Position numbers and translations under genes: made by a program. DNA of 64,000 nt from Oscillospiraceae bacterium (GTDB lineage: Bacteria; Bacillota; Clostridia; Oscillospirales; Ruminococcaceae), in assembly GCA_031260665.1 (NCBI GenBank), contig JAISLD010000036.1, forward strand, positions 62,001 to 126,000. The letters are read 5' to 3'. The notes under the pieces were generated by a model that was not told where the DNA came from, searched no databases, and worked only from the letters and a program-made list of their open reading frames with translations. Below, in pieces: positions 4,152-42,896 of this stretch (its first letter is position 1; each line of letters starts with the position of its first letter).

Positions 4152-5348
4152 ATGGCAGAAACAAAACGCGATTATTACGACACGCTTGGGCTGTCAAAAA
4201 GCGCAAACGACGACGAGATAAAGAAAGCGTACCGTAAGTTAGCGAAGCAGTATCACCCCGACCTCAACCCCGGCGACAAGGTGTCGGAAGCGAAGTTCAA
4301 GGAGATAAACGAAGCGAACGACGTGCTGACCGACCCACAGAAACGCCGCAAGTACGACCAGTTCGGTCACGCGGGCGTCGACCCAAACTACGGCGGAGGG
4401 GGCGGCGGATTCGGCGGCGGATTCCCCGGGGGATTTTCAGGCGGGAGCTTCAACGTCGGCGACGGTATCGACCTCGGCGATATCTTCGACAGCATATTCG
4501 GCGGTGGTGGGCGCGCCTCGTCAAACGTCGGACCGAAACGCGGCAGTGATATCGCTATCAACCTTGACGTCAGCTTTATGGAAGCCTGCAAAGGCGTGAC
4601 CGAGGACGTGGAAGTCAGCGTTATGGAGGGTTGCCCCACCTGCAACGGCAGCGGCGCGCGTCCCGGCACAATCGCGGCGACTTGCACACAGTGCGGCGGT
4701 ATGGGGCGTGTGCGTGTGAAACAGCGTTCGTTCCTCGGCGATATGACGACAGAGCAAACTTGCTCAAAGTGCCAAGGCAAAGGCAAAGTGATTGAAAGCC
4801 CTTGCGTCACCTGCAACGGAGCAGGGCGCGTTCACAAGAAGAAAACCGTTCGTGTCGGTGTTCCCGCAGGGATAGACGACGGGCAAACGCTGGTGATTCG
4901 CGACGAGGGCAACGCGGGCACATCGGGGGGAGCAAAAGGCAACCTCAATGTGCGAATCAGCGTGCGCCGTGACCCCGTGTTTGAAAGACGCGGCTCGGAT
5001 ATCTACATCGAAGTCCCCGTGACCTACAGCGAAGCGGCACTCGGTGCGGAAATCGAGGTGCCGACGATTGACGGCAAGCAAACGCTGATTGTCCCTGAAG
5101 GCACACAGCCGAACACCGTGTTCAGAATGAAAGACAGGGGGGTTCAGCGGCTGCAACGCGAGTCGCGCGGGGACCAGTACGTCAAGGCGTCAATCGAGGT
5201 GCCAAAGCACCTGAACGCGCAACAAAAGGAGCTAATAAAGCAACTGCAAGAGTCACTCGGTGAACGCAACTATGAAAAGAAAACGTCGTTCACGGAGAAA
5301 CTGCGGAAGTTTGGCGGCGATATCAAACGCGGATTCACGGGCATATAA
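4152..5348 (+). CDS. dnaJ: Chaperone protein DnaJ (Hsp40)
   Basis: Type I J-protein that delivers substrates to DnaK and stimulates its ATPase. The 398 residues show a J domain (5-70) with the catalytic HPD in KQYHPDLN, a Gly/Phe-rich linker (about 78-125), and four zinc-finger repeats of the CxxCxGxG type (CPTCNGSG, CTQCGGMG, CSKCQGKG, CVTCNGAG, about 158-225). The two beta-sandwich peptide-binding domains follow. It is separated from dnaK by 165 bases of hairpin-rich repeat DNA and may therefore be transcribed at a lower level. A long bidirectional terminator follows it. Confidence 0.98.
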   Translation: MAETKRDYYDTLGLSKSANDDEIKKAYRKLAKQYHPDLNPGDKVSEAKFKEINEANDVLTDPQKRRKYDQFGHAGVDPNYGGGGGGFGGGFPGGFSGGSFNVGDGIDLGDIFDSIFGGGGRASSNVGPKRGSDIAINLDVSFMEACKGVTEDVEVSVMEGCPTCNGSGARPGTIAATCTQCGGMGRVRVKQRSFLGDMTTEQTCSKCQGKGKVIESPCVTCNGAGRVHKKKTVRVGVPAGIDDGQTLVIRDEGNAGTSGGAKGNLNVRISVRRDPVFERRGSDIYIEVPVTYSEAALGAEIEVPTIDGKQTLIVPEGTQPNTVFRMKDRGVQRLQRESRGDQYVKASIEVPKHLNAQQKELIKQLQESLGERNYEKKTSFTEKLRKFGGDIKRGFTGI

Positions 5349-5390
5349 ACAAAACAAAACCTGTTCTTAAAAGAACAGGTTTTGTTTTGT
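5349..5390. terminator. Bidirectional terminator between dnaJ and the collagen-like gene
   Basis: A perfect 20-bp inverted repeat (5349-5368 and 5371-5390, core ACCTGTTCTT) has A-rich and T-rich outer arms. It can act as an intrinsic terminator on either strand. It lies between the ends of two convergent transcription units, which supports that role. Confidence 0.9.
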
Positions 5391-5398
5391 CTGCCGAT

Positions 5399-6400
5399 TT
5401 AATCGGGGAAGTCCTCAAGCACTTGAGGCGCGGGGTAGTTGTTGTTCGCGGCAGTGTTGACCGCGCCGCTCTTTGCAATCGGGAACAGCTTGTAGTAATA
5501 CGGCGTGTCGAGTTCAACGTCATAGTCGTAAAGCCCCGATGTTGCGTGTTGGTTTCGCACCGTGTTTGTTTTGATAAGCACGCCGTCGTTTTCATCAATC
5601 GGATAACTGCCGATTTTCCGCACCAACTTGGTGTGCTGCCACTCGGTCAGCTTGGCGCCGCCGTAAACCACGTCGTCGGGGTCAGCCCACCGCAACATAA
5701 TGTCGGTGATGCCGAGATAGCAGTAGAGTCCCGTGCAGTTCGGCGTGGCGATTCCCTTGTAGCCGCCTGCCGACACGACCGCGCCCCCCGCGTCAATCGC
5801 CGTTTCATCTGACAGCGTGATGATTAGATGACCGCTTCCGTTGAAAGCCGCCCCCACCACGGACACGCCGTCCGCCCCCGTGTCGCCGGTATCGCCTTTG
5901 TCGCCGGTATCGCCTTTGTCACCTTGCTCACCCTGTTCCCCTTGAACACCCTGTTCACCTTGCTCACCCTGTTCACCTTGAACACCCTGTTCACCCTGCT
6001 CACCCTGTTCCCCTTGAACACCCTGTTCCCCTTGAACACCCTGCTCCCCTTGGATACCTTGTTCCCCTTGGATACCCTGCTCACCTTGAACACCTTGTTC
6101 CCCTTGGATACCCTGTTCACCCTGTTCTCCTTGAACACCTTGTTCACCTTGGATACCCTGTTCCCCTTGGATACCCTGCTCACCTTGTTCCCCTTGTTCC
6201 CCCTGCTCCCCTTGAACACCTTGTTCCCCTTGGATACCTTGGATACCTTGCTCACCTTGGATACCCTGTTCCCCTTGAACACCCTGCTCACCCTGTTCCC
6301 CTTGTTCCCCTTGTTCCCCTTGAACACCCACGGTTGCGGGATACCCGCCGACTTCGCTTGTTGCTCCCGGGACGAAAAAATCTCCGCTTATTGTTATCAT
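5399..6400 (-). CDS. Collagen-like Gly-X-Y repeat protein
   Basis: A short N-terminus (MITISGDFFVPGATSEVGG) leads into about 50 Gly-X-Y triplets, mostly GEQ, GVQ and GIQ, ending with GDKGDTGDTGADG. A C-terminal domain of about 140 residues follows, beginning VSVVGAAFNGSGHLIITLSD. Long perfect G-x-y runs form collagen-type triple helices; in bacteria such proteins are usually surface or spore-coat filaments, and the globular end often drives trimerisation. There is no signal peptide, membrane anchor or sortase motif. The start at 6398-6400 was preferred to one 18 bases upstream because GGGAGG lies directly before it. The repeats are nearly identical at DNA level, so their number is probably unstable. 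Its role is unknown. Confidence 0.85.
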   Translation of the reverse strand: MITISGDFFVPGATSEVGGYPATVGVQGEQGEQGEQGEQGVQGEQGIQGEQGIQGIQGEQGVQGEQGEQGEQGEQGIQGEQGIQGEQGVQGEQGEQGIQGEQGVQGEQGIQGEQGIQGEQGVQGEQGVQGEQGEQGEQGVQGEQGEQGEQGVQGEQGEQGDKGDTGDKGDTGDTGADGVSVVGAAFNGSGHLIITLSDETAIDAGGAVVSAGGYKGIATPNCTGLYCYLGITDIMLRWADPDDVVYGGAKLTEWQHTKLVRKIGSYPIDENDGVLIKTNTVRNQHATSGLYDYDVELDTPYYYKLFPIAKSGAVNTAANNNYPAPQVLEDFPD

Positions 6401-6492
6401 ATGCCCTCCCAAAGCCATTGCGCCTTTTCAAGCCTTATGATAACACGGTTTGGCACTGCAAGTAAATGCAGGCGAGTGCAAAAGACTGCAAG

Positions 6493-7287
6493 TTACAGCC
6501 AGCCTTTGTTGGTCGCTATCTCTGTGAGGTCAGCAATGCGAATCCCCTGCCGCTCTTGAATAATGCGGATAAACTGCGCCGCGTCTGTCAAACTCTCAAA
6601 CGTGCCCGTGTCAAGCCACGCGAAGCCGCGGTTAAGCAGCTGAACATCAAGCTCATCGTGTTCAAGATAAATGCGGTTGAGGTCGGTTATCTCGTACTCA
6701 CCTCTTGCCGAGGGCTTCAGCCCCTTTGCGTATTCAACCACGCGGTTGTCGTAGAAATAGAGTCCCGTCACAGCGTAGTTTGACTTCGGCTTCTTTGGCT
6801 TCTCCTCAAGTGACAACGCCTTGCCGTTATCGTCAAACTCCACCACGCCAAACCTTTCGGGGTCGGCGACACGATAGCCGAACACGGTTGCGCGTTTGTT
6901 CTGCTCGGCGTTGTTGCACGCCGACTTCAGCCGTTCAATGAAGCCGCCGCCATAAAACACGTTGTCGCCGAGTATCATCGCGGCGCAGTCGTCGCCGATG
7001 AACTCCTCACCGAGAACAAACGCTTGCGCCAAGCCGTTCGGCACCTGCTGTTCTTTATAGGACAACCGTATCCCGAAGTCCGAGCCGTCGCCGAGGAGTT
7101 TTCGGAAGTTCGGAAGGTCACGCGGCGTTGATATGATGAGGATATCGCGGATATCGGCGAGCATAAGCACCGACAGCGGATAATAGACCATAGGTTTGTC
7201 GTAAATCGGAAGCAGTTGCTTGCTGGTGACAAGCGTCAGCGGGTGCAGGCGTGTGCCCGAACCGCCCGCTAAGATTATGCCTTTCAT
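6493..7287 (-). CDS. rfbA: Glucose-1-phosphate thymidylyltransferase
   Basis: Makes dTDP-glucose from glucose 1-phosphate and dTTP, the first step towards dTDP-sugars such as dTDP-rhamnose for surface polysaccharides. The nucleotidyltransferase signature [17 protein letters not shown] is at the N-terminus, followed by [21 protein letters not shown], the [11 protein letters not shown] segment and LGDNVFYGG with the metal-binding Asp. It has 264 residues and is shorter than many RfbA proteins (about 290), lacking part of the C-terminal allosteric extension. Other rhamnose genes (rfbB, rfbC, rfbD) are not in the window. It is followed after 92 bases by the collagen-like gene. Confidence 0.92.
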
Positions 7288-7327
7288 TTTGACCTCTTTT
7301 GTTGTTTAGTAAACGCTTTGTTGGTAT

Positions 7328-7395
7328 AGCCGGTTAAACTCAAAACACTTTAGCGTTTTTAATTTAACCTACTATAAGAGAACACTAAAGCTAAT
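7328..7395 (-). repeat. Family D repeat with half of a family C palindrome
   Basis: Read on the minus strand this matches the dnaK-dnaJ spacer: AGTAGGTTAAATTAAAAACG followed by CTAAAGTG. On the plus strand it is joined to GAGAACACTAAAG, the right arm of the family C palindrome. The second arm is absent, so this looks like a rearranged copy. It lies between rfbA and the GGGtGRT gene. Confidence 0.6.
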
Positions 7396-7412
7396 CATCA
7401 TTATACACAAAA

Positions 7413-7441
7413 CCGCCTTTCAAGTTTGACTTGAAAGGCGG
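7413..7441 (-). terminator. Terminator after the GGGtGRT gene
   Basis: A 12-bp perfect stem (CCGCCTTTCAAG and its complement) has a 5-base loop, followed on the minus strand by TTTTGTGT. It lies 12 bases beyond the stop of the GGGtGRT gene and ends that two-gene transcript. Confidence 0.85.
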
Positions 7442-7452
7442 TGTGAATAGGT

Positions 7453-8463
7453 TTACGCTTTGCTTGCCTGTTCAACAGCAACAGCGCAAGCGACAGTCGC
7501 GCCGACCATCGGGTTGTTGCCCATTCCGATAAGCCCCATCATCTCAACGTGAGCCGGCACGGAAGAACTCCCCGCGAATTGTGCGTCCCCGTGGACACGA
7601 CCGAGGCTGTCGGTCAAACCGTAAGACGCGGGACCCGCCGCCACGTTGTCGGGGTGAAGCGTGCGCCCTGTGCCGCCGCCCGAAGCCACGGAGAAATACT
7701 TCTTGCCGTTCTCGACCGCCCACTTCTTGTACGTCCCTGCCACGAGGTGCTGAAAGCGCACCGGGTTGGTCGAGTTGCCTGTAATCGACACCTCGACGAC
7801 TTCTTTCTTCATTATAGCGACGCCCTCAATCGGGTCGTTACAGCCATAACACTTCACCGCCGCCTTGTCCCCCTTTGAGAACGCAACTTCACGGACAACC
7901 GTCAGCTCGTCTGTCGAGATGTTGTAGTCGGTTTCAACGTAGGTGAAGCCGTTTATGCGTGAGATAACGTACGCCGCGTCTTTGCCAAGCCCGTTCAGTA
8001 CAACACGCAGCGGCTCTTTACGCGCCTTGTTCGCGGTGCGCGCGATACCGATTGCGCCCTCTGCCGCGGCAAAACTCTCGTGACCCGCGAGGAAGCAAAA
8101 GCACTTTGTTTCTTCTTCAAGAAGCATTGCGCCGAGGTTCCCGTGACCGATACCGACCTTGCGGTTCTCCGCGACAGACCCGGGCACAGTGAACGCCTGA
8201 AGTCCTAATCCGATTGCCGCAGCCGCGTCAGCCGCTCTCGTGATACCTTTTTTGATTGCGATAGCTGTGCCGAATGTGTAAGCCCAGACAGCGTTTTCAA
8301 ACGCAATCGGCTGAACGCCTTTCACTATCTCCTCGATGTTGATTCCCTTTTCGAGAGTGAGGTCGCGCGCGGCTTCAATGGAATCAAAGCCATATTCTTT
8401 GAGGGCGGCTTCAAGTTTAACTTCACGCCGTTCTTTCCCCTCGAACTTTACATTTATTGCCAT
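7453..8463 (-). CDS. GGGtGRT family protein
   Basis: The 336-residue protein carries the motif SGGGTGRTLHPDN (about residues 264-276) that names the GGGtGRT family, a conserved family of anaerobes without an assigned reaction. Other conserved blocks are TFGTAIAIKKG, VGIGHGNLGAMLLEEET and a single CYGC motif near residue 208 that could bind a metal. There are no membrane segments or signal peptide. The gene lies 15 bases downstream of a NifU-like scaffold gene, a pairing I recall from many clostridial genomes, which suggests a role with iron-sulfur clusters. The ATG at 8463 has a GGAGGAGG site just upstream. Confidence 0.85.
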   Translation of the reverse strand: MAINVKFEGKERREVKLEAALKEYGFDSIEAARDLTLEKGINIEEIVKGVQPIAFENAVWAYTFGTAIAIKKGITRAADAAAAIGLGLQAFTVPGSVAENRKVGIGHGNLGAMLLEEETKCFCFLAGHESFAAAEGAIGIARTANKARKEPLRVVLNGLGKDAAYVISRINGFTYVETDYNISTDELTVVREVAFSKGDKAAVKCYGCNDPIEGVAIMKKEVVEVSITGNSTNPVRFQHLVAGTYKKWAVENGKKYFSVASGGGTGRTLHPDNVAAGPASYGLTDSLGRVHGDAQFAGSSSVPAHVEMMGLIGMGNNPMVGATVACAVAVEQASKA

Positions 8464-8478
8464 AATCGCTCCTCCTCC

Positions 8479-9174
8479 TTATTCCTCACGCGGGTCAATC
8501 GTCTTGACCGCCTCGTCGTATCTGCCGTATTGTCCGCACGCGCCCTTGTAGGCTTCGTCGGGGGATTTGCCGTGGCGAATATCATCAAGCATTTTGCCAA
8601 TCTTGACGAATCTGTAGCCGATAATCTCGTTGTTTTCGTCAAGCCCGAGAGATGTGATGTAACCCTCGGTCATCTCCATATAACGAACGCCTTTTTTCTT
8701 TGTGGAGAAGATTGTGCCGATTTGTGAACGGAGAACCTTGCCTAAATCCTCGAAACTTGCGCCGACTGAAAGCCCGTCGTCGCTGAACGCTGACTGTGAC
8801 CGACCGTAAACTATTTGCAGGAACAACTCTCTCATTGCCACGTTGATTGCGTCGCACACGAGGTCGGTGTTCAGCGCCTCAAGTATGGTTTTCCCGGGGA
8901 GGATTTCGCCCGCCATTGCGGCCGAGTGGGTCATACCCGAGCAACCGATGGTTTCAAGCAGTGCCTCCTCGATAATGCCGTCTTTGATGTTGAGCGAGAG
9001 TTTACAGGTGCCTTGTTGGGGGGCGCACCAACCGATACCGTGGGTGAAGCCGCTGATGTCTTTAATCTCATAAGGCTTTACCCATTTGCCCTCTTCGGGG
9101 ATTGGAGCGGGACCGTGGTGAGGACCTTTAGCCACCACGCACATATGCTCCACTTCGTGAGTGTAGTTTGTCAT
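8479..9174 (-). CDS. Iron-sulfur cluster assembly scaffold protein (NifU-like, paired with GGGtGRT)
   Basis: The 231-residue protein has the NifU/IscU-type core: a Cys in WCAPQQGTCKLSL, then LLETIGCSGMTHSAAMAGEILPGKT with the second Cys, then a helical segment; a third Cys lies in YKGACGQYGRYDEA. In IscU, three cysteines hold a transient iron-sulfur cluster. The N-terminus (MTNYTHEVEHMCVVAKGPHHGPAPIPEEG) is longer than in IscU and typical of the version that accompanies GGGtGRT proteins. No cysteine desulfurase lies nearby. The gene has its own consensus promoter and a hairpin in its leader. Confidence 0.85.
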   Translation of the reverse strand: MTNYTHEVEHMCVVAKGPHHGPAPIPEEGKWVKPYEIKDISGFTHGIGWCAPQQGTCKLSLNIKDGIIEEALLETIGCSGMTHSAAMAGEILPGKTILEALNTDLVCDAINVAMRELFLQIVYGRSQSAFSDDGLSVGASFEDLGKVLRSQIGTIFSTKKKGVRYMEMTEGYITSLGLDENNEIIGYRFVKIGKMLDDIRHGKSPDEAYKGACGQYGRYDEAVKTIDPREE

Positions 9175-9292: not shown

Positions 9293-9295
9293 CAA

Positions 9296-9445
9296 GTCCG
9301 AGCGCGGACAGCGCAATAAGCTAATAGTGATACGTTGCCGGTTAAGTCCGAGCGCGGACAGCGCAATAAGCTAATGGTGGTGCGTTGCCAGTTAAGTTCG
9401 AGCGCGGACAGCGCAATAAGCTAATGGTGGTACGTTGCCGGTTAA
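9296..9445. repeat. Three tandem 50-bp repeats (family B)
   Basis: Units at 9296-9345, 9346-9395 and 9396-9445 are almost identical. Each starts with a GTCCG-AGCG-CGGAC hairpin and continues ACAGCGCAATAAGCTAAT. There is no spacer variation, so this is not a CRISPR array. The units share hairpin and tail with single-copy repeats scattered in other intergenic regions and with the 75-bp tandem array near 36 kb. They fill most of the gap between two divergent promoters. Confidence 0.85.
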
Positions 9446-33650: not shown

Positions 33651-35903
33651 TTGACTTCTCTCATCAAATCCCTCGATAACTTCAGCAGGGTGTTTTCTCT
33701 CATACCACTTCCGCTGTTTGTCGGTCGTGTGTCAGAGAACCCGACCTTGGTTTATGCCAACGAGTCGTTCTACACGTCACTCGGCGTTCCGCCTGATGTG
33801 CTGAAAGACACGTTCCTTAATCTTGTGTCCGCTTTTGTTGAATACGCTGACTATGACAGCGTTTGCTTCGCTATGGGTCAAGCCGCAGAGCTTCGCACGC
33901 CGCTGTCTGTTCGCGCGCGCTTCGTGTCAGACAAGCACGGCGGGATAAGCGGCACGCTTCACCTTGTCTACTGTGGCGACGATGAGGACGGCACTCCCCT
34001 TGTCAACTGTATGCTGATTGACGAATCGGAGAGCATAAAGGCAGTGAGCGACATTGACACGCGTTGGCGTGAGTTTGAAAGCATAGCGATGGCAATCCCC
34101 GGCGGTATGTCCAAGATAACCTACAAGGACAGGACCGTTGACTATCAGTATCTGTCAAACGGGCTGCACGGGGTCGCGGGTTACGCGGTGGACGACGCCG
34201 AGTGCCGCAGTGTCGAGGCAATAATCTGTGACGAGGATATAGACAAGTATTATGAGGAGATAGAGCGGCAGAAAGACTATTCCGCGTTTCAGCTGGTCTA
34301 CAGGGTCGTCAACAAAGACGGAACGCTTCGTTGGGTGCTTCACAACGGGGTGCTTACCGAGGTGAACGAGGACGGCTTTGTCTTTGTTTGCGCTTATATC
34401 GACATCAACGAGATAAAAAAGTCACAGCTTGCCGCTGACCGTGAACGTGAGCGGCTGTCTATAATTATGGGCGTGTCTGACGATATCTTGTTTGAATATA
34501 ACATCAAAAACGATTCAATGCACCTGACCGACAACGGACTGAAAGCAATCAACCAAGAAGCCGAGATGACGATTGAAAACTATGTCGGTGGGTATCTCAA
34601 GGGCAACGTCATTCATCACGACTATCATATCCCAATGAAGTCGTTCCTCACCGAGAAAGGCGTGGCAAGCCTTGAGTATCTCGCAAAAACTATCGATTCG
34701 GTTGACGAGTTCCGTTGGAATCAGATTATCGGTGCGGGAGTCCGTGACTCCGAGGGTTATGTGTCCGAAGTCGTCGGGATAATCCGCGATGTTCACGAAA
34801 AAAAGCTGATGCTCCTAAAAGAAGCAGACGAGCAGAACCGTGACCAACTGACAAAGGTCTACACCTTGCCTCACTTCGGCAAACTTGTTGAACAGCGGCT
34901 GGCAAACAAAGGCGGCAGAAGAATCGGTGCGTTTGTCTTTATCGCGGTGGAGAACCTGTCGGTTATGTCGTCGCGGCTGTCTACGGTCTATGTCGGCTGC
35001 ATACTGCGTCACTTCGCCGAGTTCCTCATTGACGCGTTCCCGCAGGACACAATCCCCGCGAGAATCAGCCCGACTGTTTTCGCTTTGTTTGTCCCGAATG
35101 CCGCTGACATCAAAAACATAATCGAAACCTCTGAACGTACGGCGGAGAAGTACAGCGAGCTTTACTTTGACGGGGACGACGCGCAGTCGTCACATCTGTC
35201 GATAGGCATTGCGTTCTCTCCGCGTGACGGCGACACGTTCGATAAACTTTGCGAGCGGGCTGCAGCTGCCGCGGAAGTATCACGGGCAAACGGCGGCGAC
35301 GTCACGGTGTTCTCTCGTGACTTTGAGAAGCAGGAAATCGGGCTTGACACACTGGGCACAATAGAATCGGAAGCGGCTGACGGCATACTTGACGACGCGG
35401 AAGCGGGCGAGGTGCTGAACCTGCTCATCACATCGCAAGATACGTCGCTGTCGGTACAGGTGGCTCTCGGAACACTCGGTCATCGCTTCTTCGCTGACCG
35501 TGTAACGGTCTATAACTCCGACAAAGAAGCGACCGTGCTTCTGCTTAAGTACGAGTGGCGTTCCTCCGGGACAAACGCCGCCGCTTCGATAGTTCATCGC
35601 TATGTTGACGACGACGACGACGATGATGAGGACATCTTCGACTTGTTCAAGTCGGGTGAACCTGTGGTGGTTGAAATGGACGGCGGCGACTACAATCTGT
35701 CGCTTCACGGCGCGAATATCCCCGACAGCACCGACCGAACAGTCGCGCTGTTTCCGATACTGAGTGACAACGGACTGCACGGTGTGGTCGGGTTTATGAG
35801 GCTTGGCGGCGGCTACCCGTTCTCTGACGGAGAGCTGCTGCGAATGAGATATATGGCGGACGTTATCGGAATGTATACGATGAAGATTAACACTAAGGAG
35901 TAA
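33651..35903 (+). CDS. PAS-domain sensor with degenerate GGDEF and C-terminal GAF-like domain
   Basis: The 750 residues appear to contain three PAS-like domains (about 10-115, 130-258 and 265-392; the second has FQLVYRVVNKDGTLRWVLHNG and a closing ...AYIDINEIK), a GGDEF-fold domain (about 395-560, RDQLTKVYTLPHFGKLVEQRL at its start) and a GAF-like domain (about 575-750). Where an active cyclase has RxGGDEF there is ISPTVFALF near residue 472, so diguanylate synthesis is not expected. It may bind GTP or c-di-GMP or only transmit signals. No membrane segment is seen. The start is TTG at 33651, with AGAGG upstream; there is no better start nearby. Confidence 0.83.
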   Translation: MTSLIKSLDNFSRVFSLIPLPLFVGRVSENPTLVYANESFYTSLGVPPDVLKDTFLNLVSAFVEYADYDSVCFAMGQAAELRTPLSVRARFVSDKHGGISGTLHLVYCGDDEDGTPLVNCMLIDESESIKAVSDIDTRWREFESIAMAIPGGMSKITYKDRTVDYQYLSNGLHGVAGYAVDDAECRSVEAIICDEDIDKYYEEIERQKDYSAFQLVYRVVNKDGTLRWVLHNGVLTEVNEDGFVFVCAYIDINEIKKSQLAADRERERLSIIMGVSDDILFEYNIKNDSMHLTDNGLKAINQEAEMTIENYVGGYLKGNVIHHDYHIPMKSFLTEKGVASLEYLAKTIDSVDEFRWNQIIGAGVRDSEGYVSEVVGIIRDVHEKKLMLLKEADEQNRDQLTKVYTLPHFGKLVEQRLANKGGRRIGAFVFIAVENLSVMSSRLSTVYVGCILRHFAEFLIDAFPQDTIPARISPTVFALFVPNAADIKNIIETSERTAEKYSELYFDGDDAQSSHLSIGIAFSPRDGDTFDKLCERAAAAAEVSRANGGDVTVFSRDFEKQEIGLDTLGTIESEAADGILDDAEAGEVLNLLITSQDTSLSVQVALGTLGHRFFADRVTVYNSDKEATVLLLKYEWRSSGTNAAASIVHRYVDDDDDDDEDIFDLFKSGEPVVVEMDGGDYNLSLHGANIPDSTDRTVALFPILSDNGLHGVVGFMRLGGGYPFSDGELLRMRYMADVIGMYTMKINTKE

Positions 35904-36135
35904 ATCAAACGTATACCTGTCCCGTCAACTCTATTGCCTGTCCGGCACGGACCGATGAAGATAAACACTAAGGAGTAAATCAAGCGTATACCTGTCCCGT
36001 CAACTCTACTGCCTGTCCGGCACGGACCGATGAAGATAAACACTAAGGAGTAAACCAAGCGTATACCTGTCCCGTCAACTCTATTGCCTGTCCGGCACGG
36101 ACCAATGAAGATAAACACTAAGGAATAATTATACA
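35880..36135 (+). repeat. Tandem 75-bp repeat (family B) at a gene boundary
   Basis: Units begin at 35880, 35955, 36030 and, truncated, 36105. Each contains ATGAAGATAAACACTAAGGA (the last codons of the PAS gene), then a stop, GTATACCTGTCCCGTCAAC, CTCTATTGCCTG and the hairpin GTCCGGCACGGAC. The final partial unit supplies AAGGA, the ribosome binding site of the next gene. The inner part is an inverted family B element, so a repeat together with the adjacent gene end has been copied in tandem. Confidence 0.88.
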
Positions 36136-37659
36136 ATGAAGAAGAATCTCGTAGCAAAAATCAAAGAGTCCCTATCAAGCGCACTGCCGATTACCGTAAT
36201 CGTGCTGATTCTCGCCGCGACTATCGCGCCTGTATCAGGTGAGATGATGTGTATGTTCTTAATCGGTGCGGCAATGCTGGTTATCGGAATCGGGCTGTTC
36301 ACCCTTGGCGCTGACACTTCGATGATGGTGATGGGCGAGAAAATCGGCGCGGGAATCACGCGGACCAAGAAACTGCCGCTGATACTGTTCACTTGCCTCT
36401 TTATCGGCATAATGATAACAGTTGCTGAACCTGACCTCCGTGTTCTCGCGGAGCAAACGTCAATCGCCGAGAATATGACGCTTATCCTCGCCGTCGCTAT
36501 CGGTGTCGGTCTGTTTCTTGTGGTCGCGTTTCTTCGCATAATGCTGAAGCTGCGGCTGTCTGTGCTTCTCTTTGTGTTTTACCTTGGGGTGTTTGTGCTG
36601 GCTCTCTCTCCGCTGACACAAAACGAGTTCATTCCTGTTGCGTTTGATTCGGGTGGCGTGACGACAGGACCTATCAGTGTGCCGTTTATTATGGCGCTCG
36701 GTGTGGGGCTTGCTTCCATTCGCGGCGATAAGTCAAGCCAAGACGACACGTTCGGGTTGGTTGCGCTTTGCTCGATTGGTCCTATCGTGACGGTGCTGAT
36801 TCTCGGCGCGATAGCGGGCGGCGGTGGTACAGACGACACGGTAGCCGAGGTGATTAACCCCGCTGACACACAGCAAGTCGTGGTCGGTTTTCTTCACGCG
36901 TTCCCCGAACAGTTTGCCGATGTGGCACTCGCTGTCGCGCCGATTGTCGGGATATGCCTTATATTCCAGCTTGCGATGATAAAGATGAGCATGAAACACA
37001 TGAAGCGAGTGATTGTCGGCTTCTTGTTCACTTATTTCGGTTTGGTCATATTTCTCACAGGTGTGAACGTCGGGTTTTTGCCTATGGGAATGACAATGGG
37101 CGAGGCGCTCGGCGGTGGTAAGTTCGCGGCTCTGCTTGTCCCGATTGGCGCGATAATGGGATACTTCATTGTCACCGCTGAACCCGCTGTTCACGTACTT
37201 AAAAAGCAAGCGGAAGACGTGACGAATGGTGTCATAAGCGGCAAGACTCTCGGTTTGGCGTTGTCAATCGGCGTCGGTGTTGCTGTGGCACTCGCAATGC
37301 TTCGTGTGCTGACAGGAATGAATATCCTGTGGCTTATTATCCCCGGTTACGCGTTTTCACTCATCATCAGCTTCTTTGTGCCGCCGATTTACACCGCGAT
37401 TGCGTTTGACTCGGGCGGCGTTGCTTCGGGTCCCATGACCGCGACGTTTCTCTTGCCGTTTGCGATAGGTGCGTGTGTCGGTGTCGGTGGCAACATCGCG
37501 ACAGACGCGTTCGGTATGGTGACAATGGTGGCGTTAGCTCCGCTGATTACCATTCAGATTCTCGGTTTCTACGGCAAATATTTCAAGAAACACGCGAAAC
37601 CCGCAATCAAGTACACGCGTGATATGTTCCTCCCCGAAGAAATCATCGATTTGGTATAA
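36136..37659 (+). CDS. DUF1538 domain integral membrane protein (internal duplication)
   Basis: A 507-residue membrane protein with about 12-14 helices, made of two homologous halves. Each half has a signature, AFDSGGVTTGPISVPF (about 169-184) and AFDSGGVASGPMTATF (about 423-438), each followed by a Gly/Ser-rich segment and an Asp-containing FGxV motif. This matches DUF1538 proteins, which look like transporters with inverted or tandem repeats; the substrate is unknown to me. The next gene encodes a double PII-like protein, suggesting regulated transport, as AmtB is regulated by GlnK. The ribosome binding site AAGGA comes from the 75-bp tandem repeat. Confidence 0.88.
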   Translation: MKKNLVAKIKESLSSALPITVIVLILAATIAPVSGEMMCMFLIGAAMLVIGIGLFTLGADTSMMVMGEKIGAGITRTKKLPLILFTCLFIGIMITVAEPDLRVLAEQTSIAENMTLILAVAIGVGLFLVVAFLRIMLKLRLSVLLFVFYLGVFVLALSPLTQNEFIPVAFDSGGVTTGPISVPFIMALGVGLASIRGDKSSQDDTFGLVALCSIGPIVTVLILGAIAGGGGTDDTVAEVINPADTQQVVVGFLHAFPEQFADVALAVAPIVGICLIFQLAMIKMSMKHMKRVIVGFLFTYFGLVIFLTGVNVGFLPMGMTMGEALGGGKFAALLVPIGAIMGYFIVTAEPAVHVLKKQAEDVTNGVISGKTLGLALSIGVGVAVALAMLRVLTGMNILWLIIPGYAFSLIISFFVPPIYTAIAFDSGGVASGPMTATFLLPFAIGACVGVGGNIATDAFGMVTMVALAPLITIQILGFYGKYFKKHAKPAIKYTRDMFLPEEIIDLV

Positions 37660-37674
37660 ATAGTAAACACCGAT

Positions 37675-37785
37675 TAACTATACTGCGAAGCGGCGGAGGT
37701 TAAACTAAAAGTTTAACCTGTTAAGGAGTATAACAATAAAGTAGCCGTGTTCCCTCCTCACCGCGGGTGGGGAGGGAACACAAGT
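37675..37785. repeat. Repeat cluster between the DUF1538 and PII genes
   Basis: GCGAAGCGGCGGAGG, then GTTAAACTAAAAGTTTAACC and AAGGAGTATAACAATA (37684-37737), matches the element at 33154-33233. A family C palindrome follows (GTGTTCCCTCCTCACC and GGGTGGGGAGGGAACAC, about 37748-37781). The arms differ from other family C copies by paired changes (CTCTCC to CCTCC). It may lower transcription into the PII-like gene. Confidence 0.7.
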
Positions 37786-37815
37786 GATTAGTTATTAAGC
37801 AACAAGGATTAAATA

Positions 37816-38496
37816 ATGCAGATAGTATTCACGATAATCGACCAAGGCGCGACTTCACGGCTTGCCGCGTTGTTCGACAGCGAAAACATCACGTTTCGCA
37901 ACACAATCAAGGGCGAGGGTTCGGCTGAAAGCGCAACGCTTGAGCTGCTCGGCTTGGGCGAGAACCGCAAGGCAATCTGCCTTGCCGCCTGCCCGAACGC
38001 ACAGGTTCAGCCGCTGTACAGGCGGCTGAACCGCGAAATGCGCTTCTTCCGACCGGGTGCGGGCGTGGCGTTCGCTGTGCCGACCGCAAGGGCAAGCACC
38101 ACGGTTGCGGCACTGACAGGGCTGTCCCCCGATGAACTTAAACAAGAAAAAGGTGAACTTGATATGAGCAACTATCCGTTTGAACTTATAATCACGATTG
38201 TCAACCGCGGCTTCTCCGACATCGTAAAGATCTCGGCACGCGAACTCGGCGCGAGAGGCGGCACGGTAATCCACGGACTTGGAATGGACACTTTGGGGGC
38301 GGCTTTCCTTGGGATACAGCTTCAACCCGAGAAAGACGTGGTGCTGATTGTGGTGCCGACAGGCGAGGCGCGCCCGATGATGGAAAAGATAGTCAAAGAC
38401 GCGGGAGTCGACACACCGGGCAAGGGCATCTGCTTCTCGCTGCCTGTCAGCAGTGCCTGCGGCTTGGCGACCAAAGACGACCCCGATTTTAATTAA
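37816..38496 (+). CDS. Tandem PII-like (GlnB-fold) protein
   Basis: The 226 residues hold two PII-like domains. The first (1-105) is divergent: MQIVFTIIDQGATSRLAAL. The second (about 118-226) is closer to GlnB: FELIITIVNRGFSDIVKISARELGARGGTVIHG, then EKDVVLIVVPTGEARPMMEKI and PGKGICFSLPV. GGTVIHG stands where GlnB has GGxTVxxxRG near the T-loop. The tyrosine uridylylation site is absent. Being next to a DUF1538 transporter suggests it senses a nucleotide or metabolite and gates that protein; this is inference. It starts at ATG 37816 after AAGGA. Confidence 0.82.
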   Translation: MQIVFTIIDQGATSRLAALFDSENITFRNTIKGEGSAESATLELLGLGENRKAICLAACPNAQVQPLYRRLNREMRFFRPGAGVAFAVPTARASTTVAALTGLSPDELKQEKGELDMSNYPFELIITIVNRGFSDIVKISARELGARGGTVIHGLGMDTLGAAFLGIQLQPEKDVVLIVVPTGEARPMMEKIVKDAGVDTPGKGICFSLPVSSACGLATKDDPDFN

Positions 38497-38507
38497 ACGA
38501 GAACCAA

Positions 38508-40490
38508 ATGAAGTCAAACATCACGGACACCAAGCCGATTCTCTCTGTCAGTATGATAGTGAAGAACGAGGAAGCGCACCTTGAGAAGTGCCTTGCCGCT
38601 ATTGCTCCGCTGCTGAAAGCGGTGAGAAGCGAGCTGCTGATTACCGATACGGGTTCAACCGATAAGACCGTGCAGATTGCCGAGAAGTATGCCGACAAGG
38701 TGCTTCACTTTGATTGGTGCAACGACTTTTCAGCCGCAAGGAACTTCGGGCTGAAAGAATGTCGCGGCGAATGGTTTATGTTTTTAGACGCCGACGACGT
38801 CTTCGACCCCGAGTATATGGACGAAATGATAGACTTCTTCAGAAATGAAAAGCTGAACAAGAACTACAACTCGGCGACTTACGTCACACGGAATTACAAC
38901 GACAGCACCTGTACATCGTACAACATCTTTGTGCAGTCGCGGATATTCAGACGCGTGGTTCTCCTCGGGAACGGCGTGTTCTCCGAGGTGCGCTTCAAGG
39001 GGCGTGTCCACGAGGCGGTGGGTCCACGACCGCCTTGTTACAACCTGCGCACCTACGACTGGCACACGGGATATGTTTTTCAAGATTTTGCGGAGGAGGA
39101 ACGAAAGTCAAAGCGGAATATGGAGCTGATTAAGTTGGACCTTGCCGACCACCCGGACGACACGCGTAATCTTGAGCTTGCAATCCGCAACGAAGTGAAC
39201 CCCGATGAGAAAAAGAAATATGTTGACCTTGCTTTATCGGTGAAAGACCTGCCCGAACATCAAGGCAAGCCGTACCTGTTCAGCCTGTATCACATTGTGA
39301 TAATCTATTATTCTCGAACCGATATGAAGAAGTCGCTTCAGCTGACAAACGAAGCGATAGAGAAACTCGGCGACGCAAAAGATGTCATTCTTTGCGAGTT
39401 TTACGGGCTGAAATGCAACGCGCTAAGCTCGCTTGGACGTTTTGCCGAAACACCCGAAGCGTATGAGAAATACCGTCAATTGTTGGCGAAGTATAAGGCG
39501 GGGGAACTGAACGTCAATTTGCTTCGTTTTATCAATGCCGCCGCGATATACGACGAGGGCGAGCAAACGCTGTTCTCGGCGGCGATTGCCTCGCTTCGTT
39601 CGCTTGGAGAGTGCGACAAGGCGTTGCTGTATTGGAACGACTTTGGTGCGATAGACAAGCCGATAAAGGAGTTTCGTCCGCTTGTAAACACCATTGCGGA
39701 CCTCGTGAACGCGGGTCGTGCGTATCAGTTGGCACGAAAAATATACGACAGTTTGCTGAAGAAAGGCGACAAAGACCAAATCGTTTGCTTTGAGGGCGCG
39801 ATTGAGAATATATTCTATCATTCAGACGAAAAGCAGGAATTTTTGGCGGCGTTTGCGGGTGGAACGGGGCGATATTTCGACCTTGCTTTGCTTGTAAAAA
39901 CGCAGAATGAATCCGGTGAGTTTTTGCAGAAACTGCAGCTGTTTATTAACGAAACAGACTGGTGCAAACACTTTTCCGAGGGGATTTATCTCGCGATTAA
40001 ATACGGCGCGGATTTGTCGCCGCTGCTTCGCCGCATTGGTCACGATGAAACTGAACATTCGCTGAAACTTATCGCGCTTTATCACGACGATTACGGCAAG
40101 TTGGTGACGCAGAATTGCCTGCCTGAAAATTACGATAAATCAATGACGGAGTTGTTTTTCTTGGTCACGGCGCTTGAAAAAGCCGCGTATGTCCCCGGCG
40201 ACATCACCGACGACGAAAAACACGCGCTTTATGAGCGATTTACGCTTATGCTCGCGATTTTTGTCACGAATATTTACAATCCCGACGCACTGAACGGCTC
40301 TGACATCGCGGTGTTCCCGCCCACGCATAGGTTCGGCTATTATATGGCGGCAGCATACGGCGCGAAGCGGGACGGCGACGGCGTGGGGTTCATCAAAGGG
40401 CTGTCTGACGCGCTTCGTGAGTTTCCTGAACTTAACGCGGTGGTGTCAGCACTGCTTGACGCGGCAAAAAAAGAATACGGTTTGACATAA
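38508..40490 (+). CDS. Family 2 glycosyltransferase with TPR-like repeats
   Basis: Residues 1-250 are a GT-A glycosyltransferase: ILSVSMIVKNEEAHLEKCLAA, LITDTGSTDKTVQIAEKYAD, FDWCNDFSAARNFGLKECRGEWFMFLDADDVF with the DxD metal site, then GRVHEAV and WHTGYV. Such N-termini occur in SunS-like and other clostridial enzymes that modify peptides or surface glycans. The rest (about 260-660) is helical and TPR-like, perhaps for protein binding. There are no membrane segments. It lies 11 bases after the PII-like gene and about 50 bases before the acyltransferase locus, so read-through is possible. Confidence 0.88.
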   Translation: MKSNITDTKPILSVSMIVKNEEAHLEKCLAAIAPLLKAVRSELLITDTGSTDKTVQIAEKYADKVLHFDWCNDFSAARNFGLKECRGEWFMFLDADDVFDPEYMDEMIDFFRNEKLNKNYNSATYVTRNYNDSTCTSYNIFVQSRIFRRVVLLGNGVFSEVRFKGRVHEAVGPRPPCYNLRTYDWHTGYVFQDFAEEERKSKRNMELIKLDLADHPDDTRNLELAIRNEVNPDEKKKYVDLALSVKDLPEHQGKPYLFSLYHIVIIYYSRTDMKKSLQLTNEAIEKLGDAKDVILCEFYGLKCNALSSLGRFAETPEAYEKYRQLLAKYKAGELNVNLLRFINAAAIYDEGEQTLFSAAIASLRSLGECDKALLYWNDFGAIDKPIKEFRPLVNTIADLVNAGRAYQLARKIYDSLLKKGDKDQIVCFEGAIENIFYHSDEKQEFLAAFAGGTGRYFDLALLVKTQNESGEFLQKLQLFINETDWCKHFSEGIYLAIKYGADLSPLLRRIGHDETEHSLKLIALYHDDYGKLVTQNCLPENYDKSMTELFFLVTALEKAAYVPGDITDDEKHALYERFTLMLAIFVTNIYNPDALNGSDIAVFPPTHRFGYYMAAAYGAKRDGDGVGFIKGLSDALREFPELNAVVSALLDAAKKEYGLT

Positions 40491-40509
40491 AACAAAGCGT
40501 GTAAAACGC

Positions 40510-40538
40510 TTGACAAATTTACAGAAATATGGTATAAT
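40510..40538 (+). promoter_or_regulatory. Promoter at the acyltransferase repeat tract
   Basis: TTGACA (40510-40515) and TATAAT (40533-40538) with a 17-base spacer. The -10 box lies 1 base before the ATG at 40540, so transcripts from this promoter would start inside or at the edge of the 7-bp repeats. If it is used, the ATG would be lost from the message unless the start point is unusually close. Confidence 0.75.
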
Positions 40539-40543
40539 TATGA

Positions 40544-40599
40544 GGCGACAGGCGACAGGCGACAGGCGACAGGCGACAGGCGACAGGCGACAGGCGACA
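40544..40599 (+). repeat. Eight perfect 7-bp repeats (GGCGACA)
   Basis: GGCGACA is repeated eight times without error directly after ATGA (40540-40543). Seven is not a multiple of three, so each gain or loss of a unit shifts the reading frame between the ATG and the acyltransferase. With eight units the ATG runs into TGA at 40603-40605; with seven, it would read straight into the acyltransferase frame without a stop. This is the structure of a slipped-strand phase-variable locus. Confidence 0.92.
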
Positions 40600-41707
40600 G
40601 CTTGAAAATCTAAGCGGAAATTCTGTAGGTGAATTACTAAAAGCAAGCGGACGAAACAACAACTTTGATATTATCAGGCTTTTTGCGGCGATATTTGTGC
40701 TGTTTGCGCACTCGTTTGCGTTGACGGGAAACGGCGGCGCGTACGTTTCCGGCATGATTTACAAAATCTTTCGTGTCCCCGATTTCGGCGGGTTCGGTGT
40801 GAATATCTTCTTCATTCTCAGCGGCTTTTTGATAATGATGAGCTATGACAGATGCGCTTTGAATAAAAACGGCGATGCAAAATACTTGAAAAACCGTGCC
40901 CTTCGCATACTCCCCGCGCTTTACGCCACGCTTCTGCTAAGTTCGCTCGTCTATGGACCGCTGCTCACAACATTTGATTTGCCGCGGTATTTCAGCGATA
41001 AAGACTTTTGGCTTTATCTTTGCAACGTGACTTTGTTACCGCTGAATTTCTTTCAGGTTTTGCCCGGTGTTTTTCCAAACAACCCGTACACGAGCGCAAT
41101 CAACGGCTCTTTGTGGACAATCACGGTGGAAACCGCGTTTTATATAATGATTTTGCTAATTGGCATAATTAAACAGCACAAAAACAAAACGCTTATACTT
41201 GCGGGATTTGCTTTTACAACAATTATATACGCGTTGGCTGACACCGAAACATTCATCACAAACAGATATATCTTGCTGACGTCACGCCTTTTAATCCCGT
41301 TTGTTTTGGGAATGTTGGCTTATATGTACCGCGACAAAATCCGATTAAACGTGAAACTCGCGGTCATTTCTCTTGCGGGACTTTTGCTCTGCTTCAGGAT
41401 TTTCGGCAGCGACGGTCACATACTTGCCTGCGTTTTTCTCGCTTATCTGCTGCTGTTCCTCGGCTTGAAAAAACAGTGGAGAGTATCGCGGCTGCTGTCA
41501 AAAGCGGGGGATTTTTCATACGGTGTCTATGTTTACGCGTTCCCTGTTCAGCAAATCACAGTCGATTTGTTTTTACGGAAAGGCGTCGCTGTGTCGCAAA
41601 GCGCAAACTTTTTCATCTCGCTGTCCTTCACGCTGGTCTTAGCGATACTTTCGTGGCATTTTATTGAAAAGAAGTTCTTGAAGTTTAAGCATAGCCGTTT
41701 AACTTAA
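40544..41707 (+). CDS. Acyltransferase family 3 protein, start possibly switched off by the repeat tract
   Basis: Membrane acyltransferase (OatA/NolL-like) that O-acylates surface sugars. The frame is open from 40544 and carries the family N-terminus NNNFDIIRLFAAIFVLFAHSFAL (codons before 40720), then GFGVNIFFILSGFLIMMSYDR, FLKNRALRILPALY-like and INGSLWTITVETAFY. About ten helices follow. In this frame there is no ATG, GTG or TTG before the GTG at 40697, which would remove the conserved Arg of DIIRLFA. The only good start, ATG 40540, is one frame off because of the repeat number. The cell sequenced here may thus be in the OFF state. A terminator follows. Confidence 0.85.
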   Translation, partial: GDRRQATGDRRQATGDRRQLENLSGNSVGELLKASGRNNNFDIIRLFAAIFVLFAHSFALTGNGGAYVSGMIYKIFRVPDFGGFGVNIFFILSGFLIMMSYDRCALNKNGDAKYLKNRALRILPALYATLLLSSLVYGPLLTTFDLPRYFSDKDFWLYLCNVTLLPLNFFQVLPGVFPNNPYTSAINGSLWTITVETAFYIMILLIGIIKQHKNKTLILAGFAFTTIIYALADTETFITNRYILLTSRLLIPFVLGMLAYMYRDKIRLNVKLAVISLAGLLLCFRIFGSDGHILACVFLAYLLLFLGLKKQWRVSRLLSKAGDFSYGVYVYAFPVQQITVDLFLRKGVAVSQSANFFISLSFTLVLAILSWHFIEKKFLKFKHSRLT

Positions 41708-41748
41708 AACGCTTTAGCAATTTAACCTACGATAACAATAATTACAAA

Positions 41749-41773
41749 AATCCCCTTCATAACGAAGGGGATT
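41749..41773. terminator. Terminator between the acyltransferase and murG
   Basis: A 10-bp perfect stem AATCCCCTTC with loop ATAAC. On the minus strand it is followed by TTTTTGT, on the plus strand by CTTTATTT. It lies between convergent genes and overlaps the 3' end of murG. A degenerate family D fragment (AAAACGCTTTAGCAATTTAA) lies just to the left. Confidence 0.88.
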
Positions 41774-42896
41774 CTTTATTTATCAAGTCAAGCAGTATCG
41801 ACACGATTTTCCCTGCCGAATCAGGCACCATAAGCGCCGCGGCGTTGCGTCCCATCTCTGCGAGTTTCTCGCGCTCGGCAATCAGCGGAAGCACGACCTC
41901 GCAAAGTTTCTCGGGGGTCAGTTCTTCGTCAGTTATCAGCGCCGCCGCGTTCTTCTCCACAAGCGACTGCGCATTGAAATACTGGTGGTTTTCAGCGGCG
42001 CCGCTCCATGGCACAAGCACCGACGCTTTGCCCGCCGCTTTCAGCTCGCTTATCGTCATCGCTCCGCTTCTCGCTATCACAAGGTCAGCCGCCCCGTAAC
42101 ACGTGTACATATTGTAGATGTACTCGCCGAGGATTGTGCGGTCGGGGTCGGGTACCGCGCCATACTTGGCAAGCGACTCAAGAAACGCGGCTTCTCGCCC
42201 CGTACCGTATGCGTGAATGTGATTGATATTGCCGATTCGCCGCTCCTCCCCGATGAGATGAGCCACCGCGTCGCTTAGGGACTCGGCGCCGCGGCTGCCG
42301 CCGAATGAAAGTATTGTGATTCCGTCGGGGAGTCCAAGCTTCGTCAAACAGTCGGCGCGGTTTGCCACCGTGATGTTGGCGCGAAGCGGATTTCCCGTCA
42401 CGATGCACTTTTCTTTGCGTGAGATGTGGCTTACTGCCGCTTCGTCGGCAGTCAAGATGTAATTGGCTGTTCTCGCGAGTGCCTTTGTCGACAGCCCCGG
42501 CAGAGAATTACTCTCGTGATTGACGGTCTTGATGCCGAGCCGATGCGCCGCAAGCAAAACAGGCAGCGACACATAGCCGCCCGTCCCGACCACGACGTCG
42601 GGTGCGAACTCCTTGATAATCCTCCTCAGCTTAACGGGCGAGGAGGCGAGCCAGTAGGCGGCTTTCGCGTTGCGAACAAAGTTTTTCGGCGACAAACTTC
42701 GTTGAAGCCCCGCAAGGCTCACCCCCGTGAACGGATAGCCCGCTTTGACGACAAGGCGTGCCTCCATACCATCGGGTGTGCCGATAAACAGCACTTCTGT
42801 GTCGAGGAACACACTCTTAAACTTGTCCGCAATGGCAAGAGCGGGATTGATGTGCCCGGCGGTGCCACCTGCCGCAAAGAGTAGTTTGTATGCCAT
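41757..42896 (-). CDS. murG: UDP-N-acetylglucosamine--lipid I GlcNAc transferase
   Basis: Adds GlcNAc to lipid I to make lipid II at the inner face of the membrane. The protein starts MAYKLLFAAGGTAGHINPALAIAD with the first glycine-rich loop, then DVVVGTGGYVSLPVLLAA, HESNSLPGLSTKALARTA (acceptor region) and ILSFGGSRGAESLSDAV, and the donor site with SGAMTISELKAAGKASVLVPWSGAAENHQYFNA. It has 379 residues, slightly longer than usual. It is the last gene of the dcw cluster, 27 bases after ftsW. Confidence 0.97.
   Translation of the reverse strand: MAYKLLFAAGGTAGHINPALAIADKFKSVFLDTEVLFIGTPDGMEARLVVKAGYPFTGVSLAGLQRSLSPKNFVRNAKAAYWLASSPVKLRRIIKEFAPDVVVGTGGYVSLPVLLAAHRLGIKTVNHESNSLPGLSTKALARTANYILTADEAAVSHISRKEKCIVTGNPLRANITVANRADCLTKLGLPDGITILSFGGSRGAESLSDAVAHLIGEERRIGNINHIHAYGTGREAAFLESLAKYGAVPDPDRTILGEYIYNMYTCYGAADLVIARSGAMTISELKAAGKASVLVPWSGAAENHQYFNAQSLVEKNAAALITDEELTPEKLCEVVLPLIAEREKLAEMGRNAAALMVPDSAGKIVSILLDLINKESPSL

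Follow-up and report, generated by a model that had tools for sequence, protein, structure and literature searches.

An acyltransferase 3 (AT3) gene in the window, by which we mean the whole stretch of 64,000 nucleotides analysed, runs in open frame through a tandem array of GGCGACA units that directly follows a consensus promoter and an ATG. The only other full-length AT3 gene of the genome, on contig C42, carries the same module with GGCAACA units, and this twin is what is new here. We think it probable that the array is the switch of a slippage-driven contingency locus, in which the AT3 protein would be translated from the ATG at 40540 across the repeats. Slippage would add or remove 7-base units, each step shifting the frame by one base, and the ATG would be joined to the AT3 frame at one unit number in three, the other numbers yielding a short peptide. 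With eight units the window locus (locus 1) would be OFF, and with fourteen the twin would be ON in the same assembly. The ATG-bearing transcript would come from upstream, at locus 1 perhaps by read-through from a glycosyltransferase gene. We infer that the repeats slip in the living cell, that the ATG is used and that the enzyme has a target which it acylates.

The repeat module and its reading frames at locus 1

Upstream of the module lies a family-2 glycosyltransferase gene on the + strand (38508-40490, 660 aa; PF00535, E 2.7e-23), whose stop codon (40488-40490) sits 49 bases ahead of the ATG. A palindrome, AAGCGT-GTAAA-ACGCTT (40495-40511), overlaps by two bases the -35 box of a 12/12 consensus promoter on the + strand (40510-40538), which is composed of TTGACA (40510-40515), a 17-nt spacer ending in TATGG (extended TG) and TATAAT (40533-40538). 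The candidate start, ATG 40540-40542, begins one base past the -10 box and stands directly before the array, in which eight error-free GGCGACA units (40544-40599) are followed by the first base of a ninth (40544-40600 in all). The frame of this ATG, which is also that of the TTG in the -35 box and is open from there into the ATG, spans 21 codons at eight units and is closed by TGA 40603-40605; at this count the AT3 domain lies in a different frame, which is open on the + strand from 40544 to 41707 (387 codons and a stop), directly after a TGA at 40541-40543, and the domain frame thereby passes open through the whole array, as it does at the twin. A sequence scan placed a terminator-like hairpin (41746-41776) between the AT3 gene and a convergent murG-like gene. 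The first-pass annotation had described the ATG, the eight units and the TGA, and on re-reading the sequence its coordinates and arithmetic proved right.

Members of the AT3 family are membrane proteins that acylate surface or cell-wall glycans. The assignment of the locus 1 product to this family, also proposed earlier, is borne out by PF01757 (E 2.2e-30; 106.3 bits against a cut-off of 31; profile positions 2-325 of 326), which is its sole Pfam match; NCBIfam gives none, and no relative of solved structure was found by sequence at E 0.01. In AT3 enzymes an R-X10-H motif in helix 1 is reported to be essential and RXXR is a further motif, according to an excerpt of PMC9833829. Locus 1 encodes both, as RLFAAIFVLFAH (R-X10-H; Arg 40676-40678, His 40709-40711) and RALR (RXXR, from 40895), and its frame is intact over the full length, motifs included. 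A profile search of the genome yielded two AT3 genes of full length and, on contig C35, one further partial match below the cut-off, with in-frame ATGs ahead of the domain and no array.

The earliest ATG, GTG or TTG of the locus 1 AT3 frame is GTG 40697-40699, in agreement with the earlier statement that no other normal start precedes the conserved first helix. This GTG lies past the Arg of R-X10-H and before the His, and is the sole in-frame standard start before the His. Initiation there would drop the Arg, and an active enzyme made from this codon is unlikely on sequence grounds. Since no standard start lies between the array and the essential Arg at either locus, an active enzyme should start upstream of the array, with the ATG as the candidate, non-standard codons aside. 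Eighteen codons separate the locus 1 array from a conserved NNNF motif, and two relatives (L008 and L009, 34% and 30% identity) start 12 and 8 codons ahead of it, so there would be room for a start after the array at this locus. No Shine-Dalgarno-like sequence was read ahead of ATG 40540; such sites, scored by lenient rules, precede 28 of 40 ORFs in the window and 195 of 295 sampled ORFs.

The overlap of promoter and start codon is kept at both loci. Transcription begins about 7 bases after a -10 box, and for this reason transcripts of the locus 1 promoter are expected to start inside the first repeat unit, past the ATG. Promoters matching at 12/12 positions are in themselves ordinary in this genome: a 477-kb sample contains 45, counting those of both modules, and one lies 15 bases ahead of the tmRNA gene. 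In the 4.7 kb upstream (35800-40509) the scan listed no further promoter-like site on the + strand, nor did it place a + strand terminator between the module and the glycosyltransferase gene before it. As no site is listed in that interval, read-through from a promoter farther up or below the threshold would be needed, and its reaching ATG 40540 is an assumption. The perfect promoter ending one base before the ATG had been flagged in the first-pass annotation as a caveat; the promoter is as described there and the same at the twin, and the caveat has become sharper with the overlap conserved, no Shine-Dalgarno-like site and no second + strand promoter-like site in 35800-40509. A leaderless start at ATG 40540 is unlikely. 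Among the 295 sampled ORFs, a -10-like box (at least 5 of 6) stands one base before the ATG in 4, no more than at other distances, and these ORFs form no class with the ATG one base after a -10 box. Elsewhere, on the minus strand of L128 (contig C42), ATG 1036 lies five bases after the -10 box of a 12/12 promoter and before a 208-aa ORF, for which a leaderless transcript is possible.

A twin module on contig C42 and the rarity of both

The twin array consists of fourteen perfect GGCAACA units (C42:85085-85182) before the second full-length AT3 gene (PF01757, 96.1 bits, profile positions 4-321), whose product carries RGIAAFIVVFAH (R-X10-H) and RFSR (RXXR). The modules have in common 22 identical bases (AAAGCGTG through the end of TTGACA) and a 17-base spacer identical at 12 of 17 positions, the last five included, followed by TATAATTATGAGGC. 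At the twin, the ATG and the AT3 domain share one frame (MRQQATGN...GYLVPLDALRG). Only nine codons separate the twin array from the Arg of R-X10-H, and there is no ATG, GTG or TTG among them. With the ATG as start, both arrays (8 x 7 bp at locus 1, 14 x 7 bp at the twin) would lie in the 5' coding frame, and their unit length is not a multiple of three. Upstream nearby, the twin has a 9/12 promoter-like site by scan and, by eye, a TGTGATATAAT box ahead of the palindrome.

The module is thus the same at the twin, while heptamer, unit number and AT3 gene all differ. Identity between the two AT3 proteins is 24% in a long alignment with the repeats kept in and 27% over 79 residues with low complexity masked. 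Each gene is preceded by a family-2 glycosyltransferase gene (PF00535) on the same strand, and these two products share 27% identity over 74 residues. Because both the AT3 proteins and the glycosyltransferases are only distantly alike, the twin does not stem from a recent duplication of the glycosyltransferase-AT3 pair.

Perfect tandem arrays of at least 21 bp and at least three copies, with a period of 1-15, were collected from a sample of the own genome comprising the window and stretches from seven contigs (477,425 bases, 32.8% of the assembly). There are three, namely the GGCGACA array, the twin array and a 9-mer present three times at 6294; given so few in 477,425 bases, the GGCGACA array is beyond chance. 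No other perfect heptamer array occurs in this 32.8% sample. Outside this sample, searches of the assembly were limited to patterns of the GGCGACA/GGCAACA-type heptamer and of the module; over the whole assembly the heptamer-type pattern returned two arrays, both at AT3 genes. The window also holds longer repeats: a 75-bp unit in 3.3 copies at 96% identity (35878-36128), directly before the start of a 507-aa ORF at 36136; a 50-bp unit in three copies at 93% (9294-9445); and long imperfect repeats of 18/36/45 bp (5881-6329) within a minus-strand ORF (5399-6418), of collagen-type look by eye.

Parts of the module were also traced separately. TATGGTATAATTATGA is matched exactly at the two loci and with 2 mismatches at four other sites, where no array follows. 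GCGTGTAAAACGCTTGACA is exact at three sites and occurs at three more with 3 mismatches. The third exact copy, on contig C8 (L122:7716-7736), lies between the 3' ends of converging ORFs (5294-7615 on the + strand and 7756-8610 on the - strand of L122); this copy of the palindrome and -35 box is not followed by a -10 box, ATG or repeats, and the 23 bases upstream of it match locus 2, the twin, at 19 of 23 positions. Read on the minus strand, the palindrome of locus 1 also has a terminator-like score. The C8 copy may be what is left of a dispersed element, or it may be a terminator or operator that the sites share.

Beyond the own genome, a generalised module pattern (TATAAT-N-ATGA plus three NNNNACA, one mismatch) run over 394 genomes of the order returned both loci of the own genome and three single matches lacking tandem repeats, that is, no second case in the 393 others. 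The AT3 family is present in 47 of 71 genomes of the genus, own included, and in 98 relatives nothing matched the locus 1 protein at E 0.001. None of 29 AT3 loci from other genomes of the genus carries a perfect tandem array of at least 20 bp, and at 28 of the 29 (the exception being L095) a standard start lies in frame just upstream of the domain. Of seven window genes that neighbour the glycosyltransferase gene, none was found within 16.0 and 12.9 kb, respectively, of its two best homologues in the genus. Of the 71 genomes, 4 (own included) have matches to a degenerate heptamer pattern. In one of these (G052) short, partly imperfect GGCAACA/GACAACA arrays occur at five places (L066, L069, L073, L077 and L079), several near contig ends; none directly follows a -10 box and ATG, and one has TATAAT about 20 bases before it. 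The matches in G059 and G033 are in other settings. Another genome of the genus, G020, gave 99 matches (37 and 62) to the reversed control pattern, far above any other genome, and may have many short repeats of some other kind.

Weighing the explanations of the arrays

The case for a phase switch rests on one module standing before two distantly related AT3 genes, with both arrays perfect and the frame states differing. Against it are the lack of a Shine-Dalgarno-like site, a promoter expected to start transcripts past the ATG, the lack of another + strand promoter-like site in 35800-40509, the absence of a gene class with its ATG one base after a -10 box, the room for a later start at locus 1 and the G052 heptamer arrays, which have nothing to do with such a module; the missing upstream promoter-like site in particular lowered our confidence to its present level. 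A phase-variable acyltransferase had been proposed in the first-pass annotation. The twin, with its ATG in frame, strengthens the proposal, of which the translation start and variation in unit number (there being one genome per species) are unproven; its description of locus 1 as apparently OFF holds at the assembled count, on condition that ATG 40540 is the start. Some other modes of action fall away more easily. A switch acting through promoter spacing is rejected, the array lying downstream of the -10 box, and a start after the array is unlikely with standard codons, GTG 40697 being past the Arg at locus 1 and the twin having none from array to Arg. The idea of the first-pass annotation that the repeats might affect transcript structure did not hold up, as the arrays fold no better than shuffled sequences (z -0.6, 0.9 and -1.6).

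That absence of structure also bears on a reading of the array as a variable 5' leader, in which transcripts would start in the first unit, unit number would tune mRNA stability or translation, and a non-standard codon would serve as start. The 12/12 promoter, kept at both loci with its expected start in the first unit, fits such a leader, and AGAT repeats in the leader of Moraxella uspA2 offer a precedent in an excerpt of PMC4679880. However, at both loci the domain frame is open across the entire array and no standard start follows before the conserved Arg, and we regard a leader as unlikely. We are equally reserved, or slightly more so, about neutral repeat growth, by which heptamers would arise readily in the lineage and lie at gene starts by chance, their number being fixed or irrelevant and the locus 1 AT3 gene maybe silenced for good. 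G052, of the same genus, does have heptamer arrays at five places without the module, intergenic heptamer sets with no demonstrated phase variation are described in excerpts of PMC4692102 and PMC4679880, and the locus 1 frame is closed at the assembled count; yet both arrays are perfect and hold the same module position, the two genes concerned are the only AT3 genes of full length, and the AT3 frame of locus 1 is unbroken throughout and retains its motifs. An error of unit number in the draft assembly of 48 contigs, with both genes in frame in the living cell, is very improbable: the 56- and 98-bp arrays are error-free, have unique flanks and are internal to contigs of 164 and 90 kb, and a wrong number would leave the arrays themselves in place.

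A further suggestion, which we offer tentatively and hold to be rather less than likely, is that palindrome over the -35 box, promoter, ATG and hypervariable heptamer form a portable cassette placed before two unrelated AT3 genes, its upstream part occurring alone at the third site between converging genes. Expression would then be gated twice, by promoter firing and by repeat number, because the strong promoter would start past the ATG while upstream transcripts would include it. The module shared by two unrelated AT3 genes suggests a start-site cassette that could be reused to make genes switchable, and its overlap of promoter and start codon raises the concrete question of how the ATG gets onto the mRNA. 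If the phase-switch reading is true, there would be two independent switches and four acylation states per cell, readable from sequencing reads.

Comparison with known switching systems

Tandem heptamer sets, often near gene starts, are described for Beggiatoaceae, Cyanobacteria and Xanthomonas in excerpts of PMC4679880 and PMC4692102. There, many sets and gene classes are found per genome, whereas here there are two arrays, both at AT3 genes. In Moraxella catarrhalis, a short tandem repeat downstream of the uspA2 promoter alters expression (PMC4679880, in excerpt). That leader is untranslated; at the present loci, in contrast, the domain frame spans the repeats, and there is no suitable standard start after them. 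Searches of an open-access library for phase variation through repeats, covering acyltransferases, clostridia and gut Firmicutes, turned up no clostridial example, which is a weak negative.

Gram-negative pathogens are known to switch the acylation of surface glycans by slippage, through oafA and neuO. The closest likeness in enzyme family is to oafA of Haemophilus influenzae, an AT3 gene for a lipooligosaccharide O-acetyltransferase, which is reported in an excerpt of PMC9558356 to be phase variable and to belong to the genes with tandem repeats, in its case tetranucleotides. The present loci differ in having heptanucleotides, outside a Gram-negative pathogen, and one promoter-ATG-repeat module before two unrelated AT3 genes. 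NeuO, in turn, is of an enzyme family other than AT3, and its gene, for a capsule O-acetyltransferase, is phage-borne on prophage CUS-3. In Escherichia coli K1, neuO carries the heptanucleotide AAGACTC in its 5' coding region and is fully translated if the repeat number is divisible by three, and by count it is OFF in 42 of 64 complete genomes (PMC13001214, in excerpt). The likeness, as far as that excerpt goes, lies in a heptanucleotide in the 5' coding region that allows full length in one frame class only. Unlike neuO, the present genes are AT3 genes beside chromosomal cell-wall genes, and a phage origin of that type was set aside after five scans of viral contigs gave neither the module nor a relative. 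Provided that their unit number varies, the loci described here would function as oafA and neuO do.
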